From: [Pseudopropionibacterium] massiliense
GTDB lineage: Bacteria > Actinomycetota > Actinomycetes > Propionibacteriales > Propionibacteriaceae
Direction: 5' to 3'
NCBI RefSeq assembly: GCF_900607225.1
Contig: NZ_LR027842.1
Coordinates: forward strand, 1,867,617-1,931,616
DNA: 64,000 nt
The notes below the pieces were generated by a model that did no database searches, was not told the DNA's origin, and saw only the letters and a program-made list of their open reading frames with translations. Below, in pieces: positions 13,107-19,396 of the stretch (its first letter is position 1; each line of letters opens with the position of its first letter). The translations under genes and the position numbers were made by a program.

Positions 13107-14645
13107 CTATTTCTTCTGCTGCTGGTCGAACATCTTCTGCAGTTCGGGGGGCAGCTGGAAGTCGTCGATCGTCTGGGGGAAGGCCTGCGCGGCCCCGGGT
13201 TTGACGCCGAGGGCGCGCTCGGCCTCCTGCTGCTTGCGTTTGGCGGGGTTTCCGGAGATCTTCCGTCCGCGCTTCTTGGACTTGCCCTGCTGTTTGCGTG
13301 CCGCGCGTCCTCCACCCACGCCCGGCATTCCGGGCATTTTCCCACCGGCCAGTTGTTCCATCATCTTGCGGGCCTCGACGAATCGCTTGACGAGGTTGTT
13401 GACATCCGAGACCTGCACCCCGGCACCCTTGGCGATCCGCGCCCTGCGGGAGCCGTTGAGGATACCGACGTCATCGCGTTCCGTCGGGGTCATCGAGAAG
13501 ATGATCGCCTCGATCCGGTCGACCTCCTTCTCGTCGATGGAGTTGATGGCGTCCTTGAACTGGCCTGCGCCCGGCAGCATTCCGAAGATCTTGCTCAGTG
13601 GTCCCAGCTTCCGCAGCTGCTGCATCTGGGCCAGGAAGTCCTGCAGCCCGAAGCTTCCCTTGCCTGCGCTGAGCTTCTCGGCCGCCTTACGGGAGGATTC
13701 CGCGTCGAAGTTCTTCTCGGCCTGCTCGATCAGGGTCAGCACGTCACCCATGCCGAGGATGCGGGAGGCCATCCGGTCGGGGTGGAAAACGTCGAAGTCT
13801 GCCAGGCCCTCGCCGTTCGAGGCGAACATGATGGGTTTGCCGATGACCCGGGCGATGGACAGGGCCGCGCCGCCGCGGGCGTCGCCGTCGAGTTTGGTGA
13901 GGACCACCCCGTCGAAGCCGATGCCCTCGTTGAATGCCTTGGCGGTGTTGACGGCGTCCTGGCCGATCATGGCGTCGACGACGAACAGCACCTCGTCGGG
14001 GCGTGTGGCGGCCTTGATGTCGGAGGCCTGTTGCATCAGCACCTCGTCGATGCCCAACCGGCCTGCGGTATCGATGACCACCACGTCGTAGAGATTGCGT
14101 TCAGCGTGTTCGAGCGCTGCACGGGCCACGTGAACCGGGTCGCCGACGCCGTTTCCGGGTTCCGGCGCAAAGACGTGCACCCCGGCCCGTTCCCCCACGA
14201 TCTGGAGCTGGTTCACCGCGTTGGGGCGCTGCAGGTCGCAGGCCACCAGCAGGGGGCTGTGTTTCTCGGATCTCAGCCAGCGACCCAGTTTCCCGGCAAG
14301 GGTGGTCTTGCCCGCGCCCTGCAGACCGGCGAGCATGATCACCGTCGGCGGTTTCTTGGCGAATCGGATGGGACGATCCCGCCCGCCCAGGATTCCGATG
14401 AGTTCCTCGTTGACGATCTTGATGATCTGCTGTGACGGGTTGAGGGCGCGGCTGATCTCAACGCCGAGGCAGCGCTCCTTGACGGCGGCGACGAACTGCT
14501 TGACCACCCCGAGGTTGACATCCGCTTCCAGCAGGGCGATGCGGATCTCCCGCATCGTGGCGTCGATGTCCGTCTGTGTGAGTCGTCCCTTGGCCCTGAG
14601 GCCCTTGAACGTCTCTGCCAAGCGTTCCTGAAGTGTGTCGAACAA
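13107..14645 (-). CDS. ffh: Signal recognition particle protein Ffh
   Basis: The 512-aa SRP54 GTPase binds 4.5S RNA and signal sequences and docks to FtsY. The NG domain has G1 LQGAGKTTLAGKLGRWL near residue 107, VVVIDTAGRLGID and TKLDGDARGGAAL. The Met-rich M domain follows from about 300, with GSRRARIAKGAGV and LAGGKMPGMPG. The tail is Lys/Gln-rich. FtsY is encoded 3.6 kb away in the same window. Confidence 0.96.
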   Translation of the reverse strand: MFDTLQERLAETFKGLRAKGRLTQTDIDATMREIRIALLEADVNLGVVKQFVAAVKERCLGVEISRALNPSQQIIKIVNEELIGILGGRDRPIRFAKKPPTVIMLAGLQGAGKTTLAGKLGRWLRSEKHSPLLVACDLQRPNAVNQLQIVGERAGVHVFAPEPGNGVGDPVHVARAALEHAERNLYDVVVIDTAGRLGIDEVLMQQASDIKAATRPDEVLFVVDAMIGQDAVNTAKAFNEGIGFDGVVLTKLDGDARGGAALSIARVIGKPIMFASNGEGLADFDVFHPDRMASRILGMGDVLTLIEQAEKNFDAESSRKAAEKLSAGKGSFGLQDFLAQMQQLRKLGPLSKIFGMLPGAGQFKDAINSIDEKEVDRIEAIIFSMTPTERDDVGILNGSRRARIAKGAGVQVSDVNNLVKRFVEARKMMEQLAGGKMPGMPGVGGGRAARKQQGKSKKRGRKISGNPAKRKQQEAERALGVKPGAAQAFPQTIDDFQLPPELQKMFDQQQKK

Positions 14646-14697
14646 GTCCGTGCTCCTTGGATTCCGAGGCGGTGCCTGCCAAGAATACAGGGGCTCC

Positions 14698-17025
14698 TCA
14701 GCGCATGTGGCTGCTCGGCCCTCCGACGGACTCCGCTTCGCTCCCCCGGTTGGGAATTTCCACCGTCACCACCCACTGGCCCCCTTCGGGTCCCGCGGTG
14801 AACCGCCCTCCGGAGAGATCAATGCGTTCCTGGATTCCTGAAAGCCCGTAGCCGAGCGACAGCTTGGATTCTCGCTTTTTCTTCGGCATTTCGTTGCAGA
14901 TGCGAAGCACGGTGGTGGTCTCCCCCACATCCAGCTCCACCAGGCATTTACCTCCGGGATCCGCGTAGCGGATGATGTTGGTGACCCCCTCCTGCATGGC
15001 GCGGGTGAGGGTGCGTCGTGTGATCGGGGGCAGATCGTCAGATGCCGGGTCTATCCTGAAGTCGGCGTGGATGTAGGAGTTCTTGAGGGTGCCCTGCAGG
15101 CGGCCGGCCACGGTGAGGGGCCGCACCAGAGCGGGCAGCTTTCCCTCCTCCCCCTCGGACATGACGTCGGTGAGCAGGAAGAGCTCGCCATCCGCCGCTT
15201 CGAGCGATCCCGCGATCCGATCCAAAGCGAATCGAACCTCCGTTGGGTCATCGCTCTCCCCGTATGCCATGCACTGCAGCAGGATCACGGAGAAGTGGTG
15301 GGCGAGCACGTCGTGGAGTTCACGGGCGAGAAGGTTGCGTTCCTCCGTGCGGGCGGCCTCGATGGCCTCCATGAGAGCGGCTGCCCGTTCGCTCTGTTCC
15401 GCCCGGATCCTTTCGTACTGCCCGTTCAGAGCGGAATAGACCAATCCGACGAATGAAATCGACGCGCCCGCAAGGAATTCCGGTCTGCTTTCCACACCGC
15501 TGACGACGAGCCCCCACATGCCAATGAAGACCGCCAAGCCCATACCGAGAATCCAGTAGGGCTTCTGGGTTCGGCCAAATTTCCAGCACGCCATCAGGAG
15601 CACGATGGACAGCGCGACGGGGGTCTGTTCGGGGGTGATCAGCATGCCCGCCGCTGCCGCGGCGGCCACGGCCCCACCGGTGAGCGGCCACCGGAGCATG
15701 ACGGCACTGCTCACGTACCCGAGGAGGGGCCACGCCAAGGCCCATCCCAGCGGTTGGGTCAGGTAAGTCCGAAGAGCCATGATCCCCATGAAGAGCAAGG
15801 GCACGGCGGTGCCGAGGATTTTCCTCCCGAGTGATTTCTTCTTCCCCTTGACGGCGGCCGCGTCATCCACTTCCCCGTATCGGGATTCCGGGAGGCGGAT
15901 CTCGAACAGGTGTCCTCTGCCGGTGAATCCCTTGGAGAACTGTCCCCCCAGCGATTGAACCCGCTCCCGGATTCGCTCGAATGCCGATTTGTCCTCCGAG
16001 CGGAGTTTGTTGGGGGTGACGAGTTCCACCATCATGCGGGTGGTGTGGCTGGAGGGGCATTCCACCTTGAGGCGCAAGGGATCGGGGCGCAGGGCGTCGG
16101 AGGATTTCAGCACCAGCTGCGCCACCCGGGTGGCGGTGAGCTGGGTGAGCACGCTTCTTCGGTCGAGCTCTTCATCGACCTTCAGGTCCACGTGGAGACC
16201 TTGCAGGCGCAGGGCCTCCGCCGCGCTGGAGAGTATCTGGACCGATCCGATGATGGATTTCGACTCGTCGCTGCCATCGGCCACGGGATCCTCGCGCAGC
16301 ATCCCGACCAGGGCCCGGACGCGGGTGACCGCATCGAGGCAGACGGTCTGCACTCTTTCGATGGCGTCCCGAAGGGCCCAGGTGTCGGATGTGCGGCGCG
16401 GGGCCTTGTGGCCCTTCCACGCCTCCTCGAGGCGTTCGCCCACGACCCGGCGGAGCTCCCCCGCCAGCCGCAGGCGTTCGCCGCTGCGAATCTCGACGAT
16501 ATCCCCGGCCAGGATGGCAAGGCGCACCTCCCGGCGCTCAAGAACGGCGAGAACGCCTTTGAAGGCCAGTCCCAGGAAGACGCCGAAAACGGTCAGGAAA
16601 GTGTAGTCGAACATCTGCCCGACCAAGCCCTCAAGACCCCTCATGGCGCTGAGGCTGCGAATCCCCCCGTAGCCTGTTCCCAAGAGAACGACCATGGAGA
16701 TCGGCCGCACGCCGTAGCGGAAGGCGAAAGTGGCCGATGCCAGCACGAAGAACACGGGGTCGGCTCCGGCGTCCCCGGTGACCATCACGAATACCAAGGG
16801 CAGCAGCCCGATGCACAGTCCGATCCACGGCCACCAGAGCAGCACGAAGGAAGCCACCGCGATCGAGACGTGGGTCAGGACAACCAAGGGACGTATCTCG
16901 GCCCCTTCGATGAAAAGCTCCAGAATATTGGAAATGAACTGAAAACCTACGGCGAACAGGACGAACCAGCGCCCGAGGTCGACCAGAGCGACCGTCGGGC
17001 TCTTCTCCTCAGCTTCCTGGCTCAT
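14698..17025 (-). CDS. Tandem-module sensor histidine kinase with a degenerate first kinase half
   Basis: The protein is 775 aa and reads as two successive NarX/DesK-type kinase modules. Module 1 has about five membrane segments (17-155), then GERLRLAGELRRVVGERLEE (182-201), which aligns with a dimerisation/phosphoacceptor helix but has Arg192 where His is expected, and a worn ATPase-like part ending ERIRERVQSLGGQF (350-363). Module 2 has further membrane segments (405-535), then RNLLARELHDVLAHHFSV with His571, an N-box QEGVTNIIRYA (Asn683) and LGYGLSGIQERIDLSGG (724-740). Only module 2 looks able to bind ATP and phosphorylate. The partner is probably the response regulator encoded divergently at 17534. 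A small secreted-peptide gene lies 67 bp upstream on the same strand. The start ATG at 17025 is usual. Confidence 0.85.
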   Translation of the reverse strand: MSQEAEEKSPTVALVDLGRWFVLFAVGFQFISNILELFIEGAEIRPLVVLTHVSIAVASFVLLWWPWIGLCIGLLPLVFVMVTGDAGADPVFFVLASATFAFRYGVRPISMVVLLGTGYGGIRSLSAMRGLEGLVGQMFDYTFLTVFGVFLGLAFKGVLAVLERREVRLAILAGDIVEIRSGERLRLAGELRRVVGERLEEAWKGHKAPRRTSDTWALRDAIERVQTVCLDAVTRVRALVGMLREDPVADGSDESKSIIGSVQILSSAAEALRLQGLHVDLKVDEELDRRSVLTQLTATRVAQLVLKSSDALRPDPLRLKVECPSSHTTRMMVELVTPNKLRSEDKSAFERIRERVQSLGGQFSKGFTGRGHLFEIRLPESRYGEVDDAAAVKGKKKSLGRKILGTAVPLLFMGIMALRTYLTQPLGWALAWPLLGYVSSAVMLRWPLTGGAVAAAAAAGMLITPEQTPVALSIVLLMACWKFGRTQKPYWILGMGLAVFIGMWGLVVSGVESRPEFLAGASISFVGLVYSALNGQYERIRAEQSERAAALMEAIEAARTEERNLLARELHDVLAHHFSVILLQCMAYGESDDPTEVRFALDRIAGSLEAADGELFLLTDVMSEGEEGKLPALVRPLTVAGRLQGTLKNSYIHADFRIDPASDDLPPITRRTLTRAMQEGVTNIIRYADPGGKCLVELDVGETTTVLRICNEMPKKKRESKLSLGYGLSGIQERIDLSGGRFTAGPEGGQWVVTVEIPNRGSEAESVGGPSSHMR

Positions 17026-17092
17026 GTCCCCCCGCTCAGATCAGCTCACTTCCCGATTCGGAAACCATGCATTCTTCTCTTTCAAGCCATCA

Positions 17093-17296
17093 TTACCTTT
17101 TGCACCAAGTAGTCGTCTTGAAGAGCCACCAAATGATACAGCCAACGCCGCCACGGTTGGCCTCGTTGCCTTTCACCACGGAGATGGAGTTCTGATTGGC
17201 GACCGGCTCGGTGGTGTTGGCGGTCGCGGGAACCGCACCAAGGGCCAAGCAGGATCCCAACACGAGAGCAGCTGCCGCAAGGCGCATCTTTTTCAT
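17093..17296 (-). CDS. Small secreted two-cysteine peptide
   Basis: A 67-aa protein starts at the ATG at 17296, which follows GGAGGAAGCA. Residues 1-26 form a clear Sec signal (KKMR, then an Ala/Leu core, then AVPATA before Asn27). The predicted mature part is about 41 aa. It ends in GGVGCIIWWLFKTTTWCKR, with Cys53 and Cys65 enclosing 11 mostly hydrophobic and aromatic residues. This suggests a disulfide or otherwise cyclised loop and membrane affinity. A signal-peptide cysteine (LGSC16) makes a lipoprotein a less likely alternative. The gene is upstream of, and codirectional with, the sensor kinase, so a signalling peptide or bacteriocin-like product is possible. No family is recognised. Confidence 0.7.
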   Translation of the reverse strand: MKKMRLAAAALVLGSCLALGAVPATANTTEPVANQNSISVVKGNEANRGGVGCIIWWLFKTTTWCKR

Positions 17297-17520
17297 TGCT
17301 TCCTCCGTTTTTTCACGCGATCCACCACCTCCTACTCCCAGCAACGCTCAGATCTTACACACCGCGTCGCCGCGGCCGCACTCCTCGGGGCGGGTCACCC
17401 ACAGACAAACCGGCCGGCTTCGCGCCACCATCGAGGCATTCCGTCCGCCTCGCGTCTCCGGGAAGACACGTCCTTCCGCGTGGCGCGGCGGTTGATGGGG
17501 CAAAACCCGGTTCCGTGGAT

Positions 17521-17526
17521 TATGGT
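17521..17526 (+). promoter_or_regulatory. Candidate -10 element of the response-regulator gene
   Basis: TATGGT ends 7 nt before the ATG at 17534, consistent with a leaderless mRNA. The 237-bp gap 17297-17533 between the peptide gene and this gene holds both divergent promoters. On the minus strand a TAAGAT at 17352-17357 is a possible -10 for the peptide gene. Confidence 0.45.
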
Positions 17527-17533
17527 TTTCATC

Positions 17534-18217
17534 ATGACCGAGCTCTGCCGTGTACTAGTCGCTGATGATGATCCCATGGTCCGCGAGGCCTACCGCATGT
17601 TCCTGGCGCGACACGACGATCACGAGGTGGTTGGTGAGGCCCGCAACGGGCGGGAGGCCGTGGAGGCCTACGAAGAACTGAAGCCGGACGTGGTGCTCAT
17701 GGATCTTCAGATGCCCGACATGTCAGGGGTTGATGCCATTCGCGAGATCAATCGGAAACATCGCGGGGCCTGCATAGTTGCCCTGACCACCTTCGGCACT
17801 CAGGAGTACATCATTTCCGCTCTGCGCGCCGGCGCCTCCGGATACCTGATGAAGGATTGCGGCGGCCCCGCCCTGCTGAACGGTATTCAGCAGGCCCGTG
17901 ACGGCGACATGCCGCTGGCGCCGGGGGTTCGGCGCGAGCTGGTCGCCGATCTTCTGACGGGACACCCCAAGATCCTGACCGACGAGGCGGCAGCCGCCGG
18001 GCTCGCCCCCCGTGAGAAGGAATTGCTGATCTGGCTCGGCCAAGGAATGACGAATGCGCAGATCGCAGCCAAGATGTTCATCTCCGAGGGTTCCGTGAAA
18101 CAGTATCTGTCCCACATCGGTGACAAGATGGGGCTGAAGTCCCGCACCCAGATCCTGGTGCGGGCCATTCAGCTGGGTCTCGTCGATCCGACGCTCATGA
18201 CTCCCGGACTGTCCTGA
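17534..18217 (+). CDS. NarL/FixJ family response regulator
   Basis: This 227-aa two-domain regulator has a receiver with the acidic pocket at Asp11-Asp13, the phosphorylation site Asp57 in VVLMDLQMPDMSG, the ALTT threonine and the KDCGG lysine. The C-terminal LuxR-type DNA-binding domain starts LAPREKELLIWLGQGMTN and contains QIAAKMFISEGSVKQYLSHI. The ATG at 17534 begins the receiver; an in-frame ATG at 17522 is the alternative. It is encoded divergently from the peptide and tandem kinase genes and is the obvious partner of that kinase. It converges on ftsY with a 15-bp gap and no evident terminator. Confidence 0.92.
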   Translation: MTELCRVLVADDDPMVREAYRMFLARHDDHEVVGEARNGREAVEAYEELKPDVVLMDLQMPDMSGVDAIREINRKHRGACIVALTTFGTQEYIISALRAGASGYLMKDCGGPALLNGIQQARDGDMPLAPGVRRELVADLLTGHPKILTDEAAAAGLAPREKELLIWLGQGMTNAQIAAKMFISEGSVKQYLSHIGDKMGLKSRTQILVRAIQLGLVDPTLMTPGLS

Positions 18218-18232
18218 AGTATATTTCCGCGT

Positions 18233-19396
18233 TCATTCCCCGAGGATTCCGGCAACGAATCCCTCGGGGTCGAAGGGCGCAAGGTCGTCCACGCCTTCCC
18301 CGAGGCCGACGAGCTTGACCGGAACCCCGAGTTCGCGTTGCACCTGAATGACGATGCCGCCCTTCGCGGAACCGTCCAGCTTGGTGAGCACGATTCCGGT
18401 GACATCCACCACGTCGGAGAAGATCCGGGCCTGCGTCATTCCGTTCTGGCCCGTGGTGGCATCGAGGACCAGCAGGACCTCGGTGACGGGTGCCTTCTTC
18501 TCGATGACGCGCTTGACCTTGCCGAGTTCGTCCATCAGCCCAACCTTGGTGTGCAGCCGTCCGGCGGTGTCGACGAGCACCACGTCGGTTTCCTCTTCCT
18601 TGCCCTTGGCGACCGCGTCGAAGGCGACGGACGCGGGGTCACTGCCCTCGGCGGAGCTCACCGTCTCGACACCGACCCGCTCCCCCCATGTGGCGAGTTG
18701 TTCGGCGGCGGCGGCCCGGAAGGTGTCGGCCGCGCCAAGCATCACGGAGCGCCCCTCGGCCACCAGCACCCGGGCCAGCTTGCCAACGGTGGTGGTCTTG
18801 CCCGTCCCGTTGACCCCGACCACCATCACGACGGCGGGGTCGCCATCGGCCGCTGTCAGGTTCAGGCTCCGGTCGAGATCTGGCTCGACCAGCTTCAGGA
18901 GTTCGGCGCGCAGCACCTGACGGGCGCGTTCGGGATCGGAGATCCCGTCGATGCTCAGTTCCCGGCGCAACGCCTCGGTGAGTTCCGTGGTGGGTCCAAC
19001 ACCCAGGTCGGAGGCGATCAGGGTGGCCTCGAAATCGTCCCAGGTCTCGGAATCGATCCGATCGACGCTCAGCAGTTCACCGAGCGCCCGGGCCAGCGCA
19101 TTGTTGCTCGAGGCCAGGCGGCGACGCAGCCGGGCAAACCGGGAACGCGGCTCCTCGGGCTGATCCAGTTCGGGCCTCGCCGGTTCAGGCTCAGCGATCT
19201 CACCCGCCGGCTCGTCATCCGATGCATCCTCGGGTACCGGCTTCTCCTCGACAACGGCTCCCTCCTCAGGGGCCTCGATCGCCTCGGGCTTCTCACCGGG
19301 GGGCAGTTCCTTCTTGCCGTACCTGATGACGAGCGCTGCGGCCACCAGCCCGGCCCCGACGATCGCGACGACCAACCAGAAAATCAAATCTCCCAC
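18233..19396 (-). CDS. ftsY: SRP receptor FtsY
   Basis: This 387-aa GTPase receives SRP-ribosome complexes at the membrane. An N-terminal transmembrane segment (IFWLVVAIVGAGLVAAALVI) precedes an acidic linker of about 70 residues. The NG domain then shows GVNGTGKTTTVGKLARVL, DTFRAAAAEQL, VVLVDTAGRLHTK and TKLDGSAKGG. The membrane-anchored type is typical of actinobacteria. It lies 85 bp after smc. Confidence 0.96.
   Translation of the reverse strand: MGDLIFWLVVAIVGAGLVAAALVIRYGKKELPPGEKPEAIEAPEEGAVVEEKPVPEDASDDEPAGEIAEPEPARPELDQPEEPRSRFARLRRRLASSNNALARALGELLSVDRIDSETWDDFEATLIASDLGVGPTTELTEALRRELSIDGISDPERARQVLRAELLKLVEPDLDRSLNLTAADGDPAVVMVVGVNGTGKTTTVGKLARVLVAEGRSVMLGAADTFRAAAAEQLATWGERVGVETVSSAEGSDPASVAFDAVAKGKEEETDVVLVDTAGRLHTKVGLMDELGKVKRVIEKKAPVTEVLLVLDATTGQNGMTQARIFSDVVDVTGIVLTKLDGSAKGGIVIQVQRELGVPVKLVGLGEGVDDLAPFDPEGFVAGILGE

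Follow-up and report, generated by a model that had tools for sequence, protein, structure and literature searches.

A candidate peptide-pheromone locus in Propionibacteriaceae with a double histidine kinase whose first module is a predicted pseudokinase

The locus lies in the window, by which we mean the whole 64,000-nucleotide stretch of [Pseudopropionibacterium] massiliense DNA that was analysed, and is set between ffh and ftsY (Table 1). The interval between these two genes (14646-18232) contains only a NarL/LuxR-type response regulator, a small gene encoding a 67-aa peptide and, directly downstream of the small gene and on the same strand, a 775-aa histidine kinase. The regulator is divergent from the other two genes; its start at 17534 was set by homology, the open frame itself starting at 17024.

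Table 1. Features of the peptide-kinase-regulator locus, in window coordinates
Feature	Position	Strand	Basis
ffh, left cassette flank	13107..14645	minus	by inspection
Double-module histidine kinase, 775 aa	14698..17025	minus	ORF and translation; HMM and hhalign
Module 2 DHp and ATPase domain, residues 541-760	14746..15405	minus	HisKA_3 and HATPase_c
Asn683 codon, N-box	14977..14979	minus	translation; N in 14/14 core
His571 codon, predicted phosphoacceptor	15313..15315	minus	translation; H in 14/14 core
Linker and module 2 membrane region, residues 384-540, six helices	15406..15876	minus	AlphaFold model
Divergence hot spot, residues 488-524 (TM5-loop-TM6, module 2), candidate ligand-specificity region	15454..15564	minus	G004 comparison
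Module 1 degenerate DHp and ATPase domain (predicted pseudokinase), residues 161-383	15877..16545	minus	hhalign, Foldseek
Arg192 codon, replaces phosphoacceptor His	16450..16452	minus	R in 14/14 core homologues
Module 1 membrane region, residues 10-165, six helices	16531..16998	minus	low-confidence AlphaFold model
Small gene, 67 aa, GGAGG ahead of ATG	17093..17296	minus	directly upstream of kinase, same strand
Peptide core, residues 50-67, predicted mature signal	17096..17149	minus	dN vs G004
Divergent promoter region, peptide/response regulator	17297..17533		
NarL/LuxR-type response regulator, 227 aa	17534..18217	plus	Response_reg 1.7e-27, GerE 1.8e-15
ftsY, right cassette flank	18233..19396	minus	by inspection

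The first-pass annotation had described the kinase as two fused modules, each with a membrane region, a DHp helix region and an ATPase domain, the first module being degenerate. The 775-aa ORF is present, on the minus strand, and its double architecture is borne out by HMM searches and hhalign. Module 2 is matched by Pfam HisKA_3 (3e-10) and, under the Pfam cut-off, by HATPase_c (2.9e-4); no histidine-kinase Pfam match was obtained for module 1. Aligned with each other by hhalign, the two modules match with an E value of 2.1e-26 over 324 columns that span the whole module, part of its membrane region included, and in profile comparison the kinase cores alone give an E value of 7.4e-21 and the membrane regions alone a weak 1.4e-4 over 36 columns. 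A histidine kinase core at residues 160-380 of module 1, as had been proposed, was found both in this core alignment and by Foldseek, for which the top match of the module 1 model was DesK-H188V (E 1.5e-7, TM 0.46-0.52); in that model the DHp helices are weak (mean pLDDT 61) and the ATPase part reaches about 80. In a low-confidence model of the full-length protein (pLDDT 64.6, pTM 0.36), each half starts with six helices, followed by DHp and ATPase elements. The further claim that known kinases of this kind have one module went uncontradicted in the available parts of the literature searched, but double kinases occur in several Propionibacteriaceae genera.

To define the family, a profile of single and double kinases mixed (A4) was tried and rejected: it matched 268 of 394 genomes of the class, reached up to 156 bits outside the family and gave no clade separation. 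It was replaced by a profile of the core (A5), with which 59 rows scored at least 121.7 bits before a gap to 110.3; these rows are a lower bound, the best 15 candidates per genome having been scored, and the division of clade from other kinases by subset HMM was set at this gap after the scores had been seen. The core itself consists of 14 double kinases of the same genus, the window included, with scores of at least 349 bits, and is carried by at least 14 of 198 genomes of the family. Relatives that carry a core kinase bear the names Arachnia propionica (two strains) and Propionibacteriaceae MAGs. Over 293 genomes of the order (best 10 candidates each), the core profile matched at least 29 at 1e-33, all of them in its own genus or family, and none outside the family.

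By sequence, module 1 is a pseudokinase in the core clade. Arg192 aligns with His571 of module 2, as the first reading had it, and Arg occupies this position in all 14 core homologues. The N-box Asn of module 1 is kept in none of the 14, the column being A, S, I or D; in the window the residue is indeed not Asn, but its proposed identity, Lys307, holds only in a gapped hhalign alignment, and MAFFT places Ser308 there. The glycine boxes are gone from module 1 across the 14 core homologues. Module 2, by contrast with module 1, keeps His571 and Asn683, and H, N and both G2 glycines are conserved in 14/14 core kinases; among all module-2 and single-module domains of the clade the H-box His and the N-box Asn are each present in 59/59. 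The description of its Gly-rich box as intact holds for the G2 glycines but not for the G1 box, which reads N-E-M where D-x-G is expected, with Asn713 at the Asp position. Since this position is Asn or Ser in 58 of the 59 domains (F in the remaining one) and Asn in 2 of 6 outgroup kinases, we regard the substitution as a feature of the subfamily.

Outside the core the degeneration of module 1 is graded. In nine non-core module-1 domains the acceptor residue is S in six, A in two and H in one, the last being L086, a distant homologue from another genus of the same family whose module 1 has both the His and the N-box Asn. A search for homologues that keep both residues thus returned one distant case and none in the core, so that the degenerate first half stands for the core clade and not for every double kinase; module 1 was probably once active, given that L086 retains both catalytic residues. 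At the other extreme, the first modules of L046, L092 and L099 retain a DHp-like stretch and have no alignable ATPase domain, and that of L104 has lost its ATPase domain or diverged beyond alignment.

A tree of 88 domains places 23 first modules in one group (support 0.988) and the second modules of the double kinases in another (support 0.944), the latter also including L052, L174, L175 and L181, which are short or cut by contig ends; the survey of first modules was made without frames L176 and L179, and long branches could mislead such a tree. Because first and second modules group separately, the tree suggests that the fusion took place once, long ago, and that catalysis was lost afterwards. 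In genome G028 the modules lie in different frames (L049:5615-8068 and a 387-aa frame), and the double kinase looks split or frameshifted.

The 67-aa peptide has a signal-peptide-like N-terminus, a polar spacer and a C-terminal end reading GCIIWWLFKTTTWCKR, in which 11 residues separate two cysteines. Positional homologues of its gene are found upstream of 13/13 other core kinases, that of G002 having a doubtful start (TTG without a good ribosome site). The core tails, such as FCLFRIPRLC, FCVWRIRTFC and ICQLFPSFPIC, carry loops of 4 to 11 residues between the cysteines (13 tabulated), and tails in the rest of the clade are often C-x-x-x-P-x-x-C, as in ICWWLPIAC, MCYYLPWLC, VCYYLPFLC and LCRIMPWFC; ICWWLPIACA, MCYYLPWLC, VCYYLPFLCGK and LCRIMPWFCDWS exemplify the common tail. 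No Pfam or NCBIfam family matched the peptides over cut-off (10 tested per library, 9 in both sets). Elsewhere the window genome encodes another system of this kind, with a single kinase and a separate peptide that ends in DLCGYFLYLFCR (L050:5372-5533, G000:C1, near 3.213 Mb); it adjoins PALP, ornithine-cyclodeaminase-like (OCD) and MFS genes, a neighborhood that may resemble a natural-product cluster. A similar secreted Cys-pair peptide, ending in YCLVFPILPQCRYLLN, is encoded at L102:7989-8156; there the kinase does not belong to the clade, and the peptide gene lies downstream of it instead of upstream.

Under a uniform rule, a peptide gene was found upstream of 14/14 core double kinases and 21/45 other clade kinases, compared with a candidate in 1 of 31 other HisKA_3 frames and on 2 of 60 opposite strands. 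The sole match among the control frames (L084) looks spurious; some control loci had less than 1 kb of upstream sequence, two of them less than 300 bases. The rule as applied returned 40 positives among 60 clade frames, the 60th being a separate first-module fragment in L049, and the number fell to 35 on removal of four double kinases that share the peptide of a preceding single kinase and of the spurious-looking L184 (G112). A weak TTG candidate in G124 was left out of the count, and the third locus of G069 (L179), with a GTG start about 1.1 kb upstream, was included. An earlier, stricter rule found 33 candidates in 1.22 million strand-bases, 25 of them beside clade kinases and eight elsewhere, with none beside lower-scoring kinases. 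Five double kinases among the 59 (in G134, G137, G146, G148 and G150) come immediately after a single kinase that has a peptide. Counting against a pheromone role, 18 of the 59 have neither an upstream peptide under the rule nor a peptide-bearing kinase ahead of them, four of these beginning within 3 bases of a contig end; one further kinase, that of L184, has the spurious-looking candidate. In other genera (L086, L087, L088, L089 and L093) the peptide, a single kinase and a double kinase stand in a row, so that single and double kinase may respond to a common signal.

The cassette lies between ftsY and ffh in 12/14 core loci, the window counted, with the other two cut by contig ends, and a divergent NarL-type regulator, 66-99% identical, accompanies the kinase in 13/13 other core loci. 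When the 14 intergenic stretches ahead of the peptide genes were aligned, no convincing motif common to the core loci emerged, and a promoter scan returned one site, at 18197, and none at the expected place. In a core subclade (L041, L043, L044 and L045), ABC-transporter-like genes lie beside the regulator within the ftsY-ffh interval, with Pfam ABC_tran matches in L041, L044 and L045. Three single-module loci have lanthipeptide genes as neighbors. In G017 and G004 the single-kinase system follows genes for a LanM-type synthetase and a C39 transporter, and in G069 one such system follows LANC_like and C39 transporter genes. By locus, a LanM (DUF4135 and LANC_like) and a C39 peptidase transporter adjoin the peptide at L051 and L053, and LANC_like and C39 transporter genes adjoin the peptide-kinase pair at L172. 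It is possible that the peptide-kinase pairs at L051, L053 and L172 regulate lanthipeptides.

These neighborhoods bear on whether the small gene product is a signal at all. It could instead be bacteriocin-like, with the kinase and regulator sensing the cell's own peptide or a rival's and switching on protection by an ABC transporter. Small hydrophobic peptides closed by cysteines can be antimicrobial, and ABC transporter genes adjoin clade loci L172, L044, L045, L041, L054 and L177. We nonetheless consider this unlikely, as the ftsY-ffh interval of the window holds no transporter, immunity or processing gene, and at L051 and L053 the full lanthipeptide synthetase beside the peptide suggests that the peptide there is regulatory.

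A second question is whether module 1 is simply being lost, the kinase being an ordinary sensor with a duplicated first module drifting to extinction and the small gene a neighbor with another job. The lost or unalignable first-module ATPase domains of L046, L092, L099 and L104 would fit such a history. However, between the window genome (G000) and its sister species (G004), the closest pair, dN/dS is 0.02 in the kinase part of module 1 versus 0.04 in that of module 2, with 0.16 and 0.25 in the respective membrane parts. Module 1 is therefore preserved under purifying selection and is not a decaying relic. In more distant pairs dN/dS is 0.25-0.43 for module 1 versus 0.14-0.25 for module 2, indicating that module 1 is freer over longer times; the constraint on it is real and overall not stronger than that on the active domain. 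With Arg192 invariant in 14/14 and peptide linkage far above controls, drift to loss is disfavoured and, in our view, highly improbable. As for the peptide being a lanthipeptide precursor, the LanM and C39 transporter genes at L051 and L053 and the LANC_like and C39 genes at L172 speak for it, but its N-terminus resembles a Sec signal and not a double-glycine leader, and the window has no LANC_like match, the three in the genome lying at 0.36, 2.86 and 3.12 Mb, which leaves the idea with a negligible claim.

Divergence between the sister species is concentrated in one part of the receptor. The G000 and G004 kinases differ at 48 amino acids, and 18 of these differences lie within 37 residues, 488-524, a segment that the model assigns to TM5, the loop and the first part of TM6 in module 2. 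Because this segment was picked after the data had been seen, the random test took the best segment anywhere in each placing; none of 200000 placings gave 18 differences in any 37-residue segment, and this held both for the entire protein and when only the membrane parts were considered. The synonymous rate there is not unusual (dS 0.37 at residues 471-540, compared with 0.27-0.34 in the four main regions). In the peptide, the same genomes show a dN of 0.179 for the core, compared with 0.075 for the signal region and 0.019 for the spacer. The single-kinase pair G017/G004 has an identity of 0.50 at -90 to -51 from the His, the same distance as the hot spot, and its N-terminal end is also at 0.50. 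Against this, three pairs among G192-G194 do not have the same hot spot, their lowest identity lying nearer the N-terminus. Clustered change in the kinase together with change in the peptide core is what would be expected of a ligand and its receptor, here in a handful of pairs that do not amount to proof.

We favor the reading, at a probability of about 0.7, that the locus encodes a peptide-pheromone two-component system whose receptor carries a fused pseudokinase half. The secreted-peptide gene directly upstream, absent from the first-pass annotation, makes it most likely that the kinase is a peptide receptor, and the 67-aa gene product is probably the ligand of the double kinase. The small gene product would be a precursor exported by the Sec route and then cleaved, its C-terminal part acting as the signal, with a ring probably closed by a disulfide between the two cysteines. 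The double kinase would serve as the membrane receptor, with specificity set in part by the outer portion of module 2 (TM5-loop-TM6). Module 2 is predicted to autophosphorylate on His571 and to act as phosphodonor for the divergent NarL-type regulator, whose targets probably include its own locus along with other genes. Module 1, presumably unable to accept phosphate or bind ATP normally, may have been retained as a partner without catalytic activity, fixing the geometry of the dimer and gating module 2; a role as built-in regulator or dimer partner, as first suggested, would fit its strong conservation (dN/dS 0.02). More tentatively, and with the odds somewhat against it, the locus may represent an undescribed family of actinobacterial pheromone systems, found so far only in Propionibacteriaceae, in which the receptor arose by fusion of two whole receptor kinases, one remaining a catalytic peptide-reader and the other becoming a conserved pseudokinase that pairs with it in the same chain and gates it.

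If correct, this would be an unrecognised type of peptide signalling in Actinobacteria, one whose signal needs neither a dedicated exporter nor a modifying enzyme encoded at the locus. It would also be a natural example of a kinase joined to a pseudokinase in one protein. Relatives form a graded series in which module 1 has both catalytic residues (L086), has them substituted (the core and others) or has lost its ATPase domain (L046, L092 and L099), and through this series the role of the dead kinase half is directly testable. The family may also help to wake silent antibiotic clusters, since three single-module relatives lie beside lanthipeptide genes. The available parts of the open-licence PMC literature yielded no report of this peptide-kinase system.

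Among known systems, ComX-ComP-ComA of Bacillus is similar in layout: a small gene for a signalling peptide lies upstream of one for a polytopic kinase, together with a NarL-type regulator; ComP is likewise a HisKA_3 (HPK7) kinase. According to PMC8895600, ComP senses a modified 10-residue ComX. No ComQ prenyltransferase is present in the window locus, and the ftsY-ffh interval (14646-18232) has no room for one, so the window system is ComXPA-like in layout and is not classed as a member. Unlike ComX, the precursor looks Sec-exported and has a Cys pair, and its host is an actinobacterium; the regulator is divergent and the kinase is double with a predicted pseudokinase half, also unlike ComXPA.

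In Agr and double-glycine (C39) systems a cyclic or processed peptide is read by a polytopic kinase, but the window cassette has neither AgrB nor a C39 transporter and its kinase is of the HisKA_3 type. DesK, a membrane-fluidity sensor, is the nearest relative with a solved structure, for module 2 by sequence (3gig, 3.4e-8) and for module 1 by fold (3ehj), and differs in having one module and no peptide. For the pseudokinase half the closest parallels in function may be RocA (acting on CovS), DivL (on CckA) and a ChrS pseudokinase variant, which are described as non-catalytic kinase-like proteins that control true kinase systems. These are separate polypeptides, whereas the predicted pseudokinase of the window forms a single chain with the active kinase and brings a membrane domain of its own.
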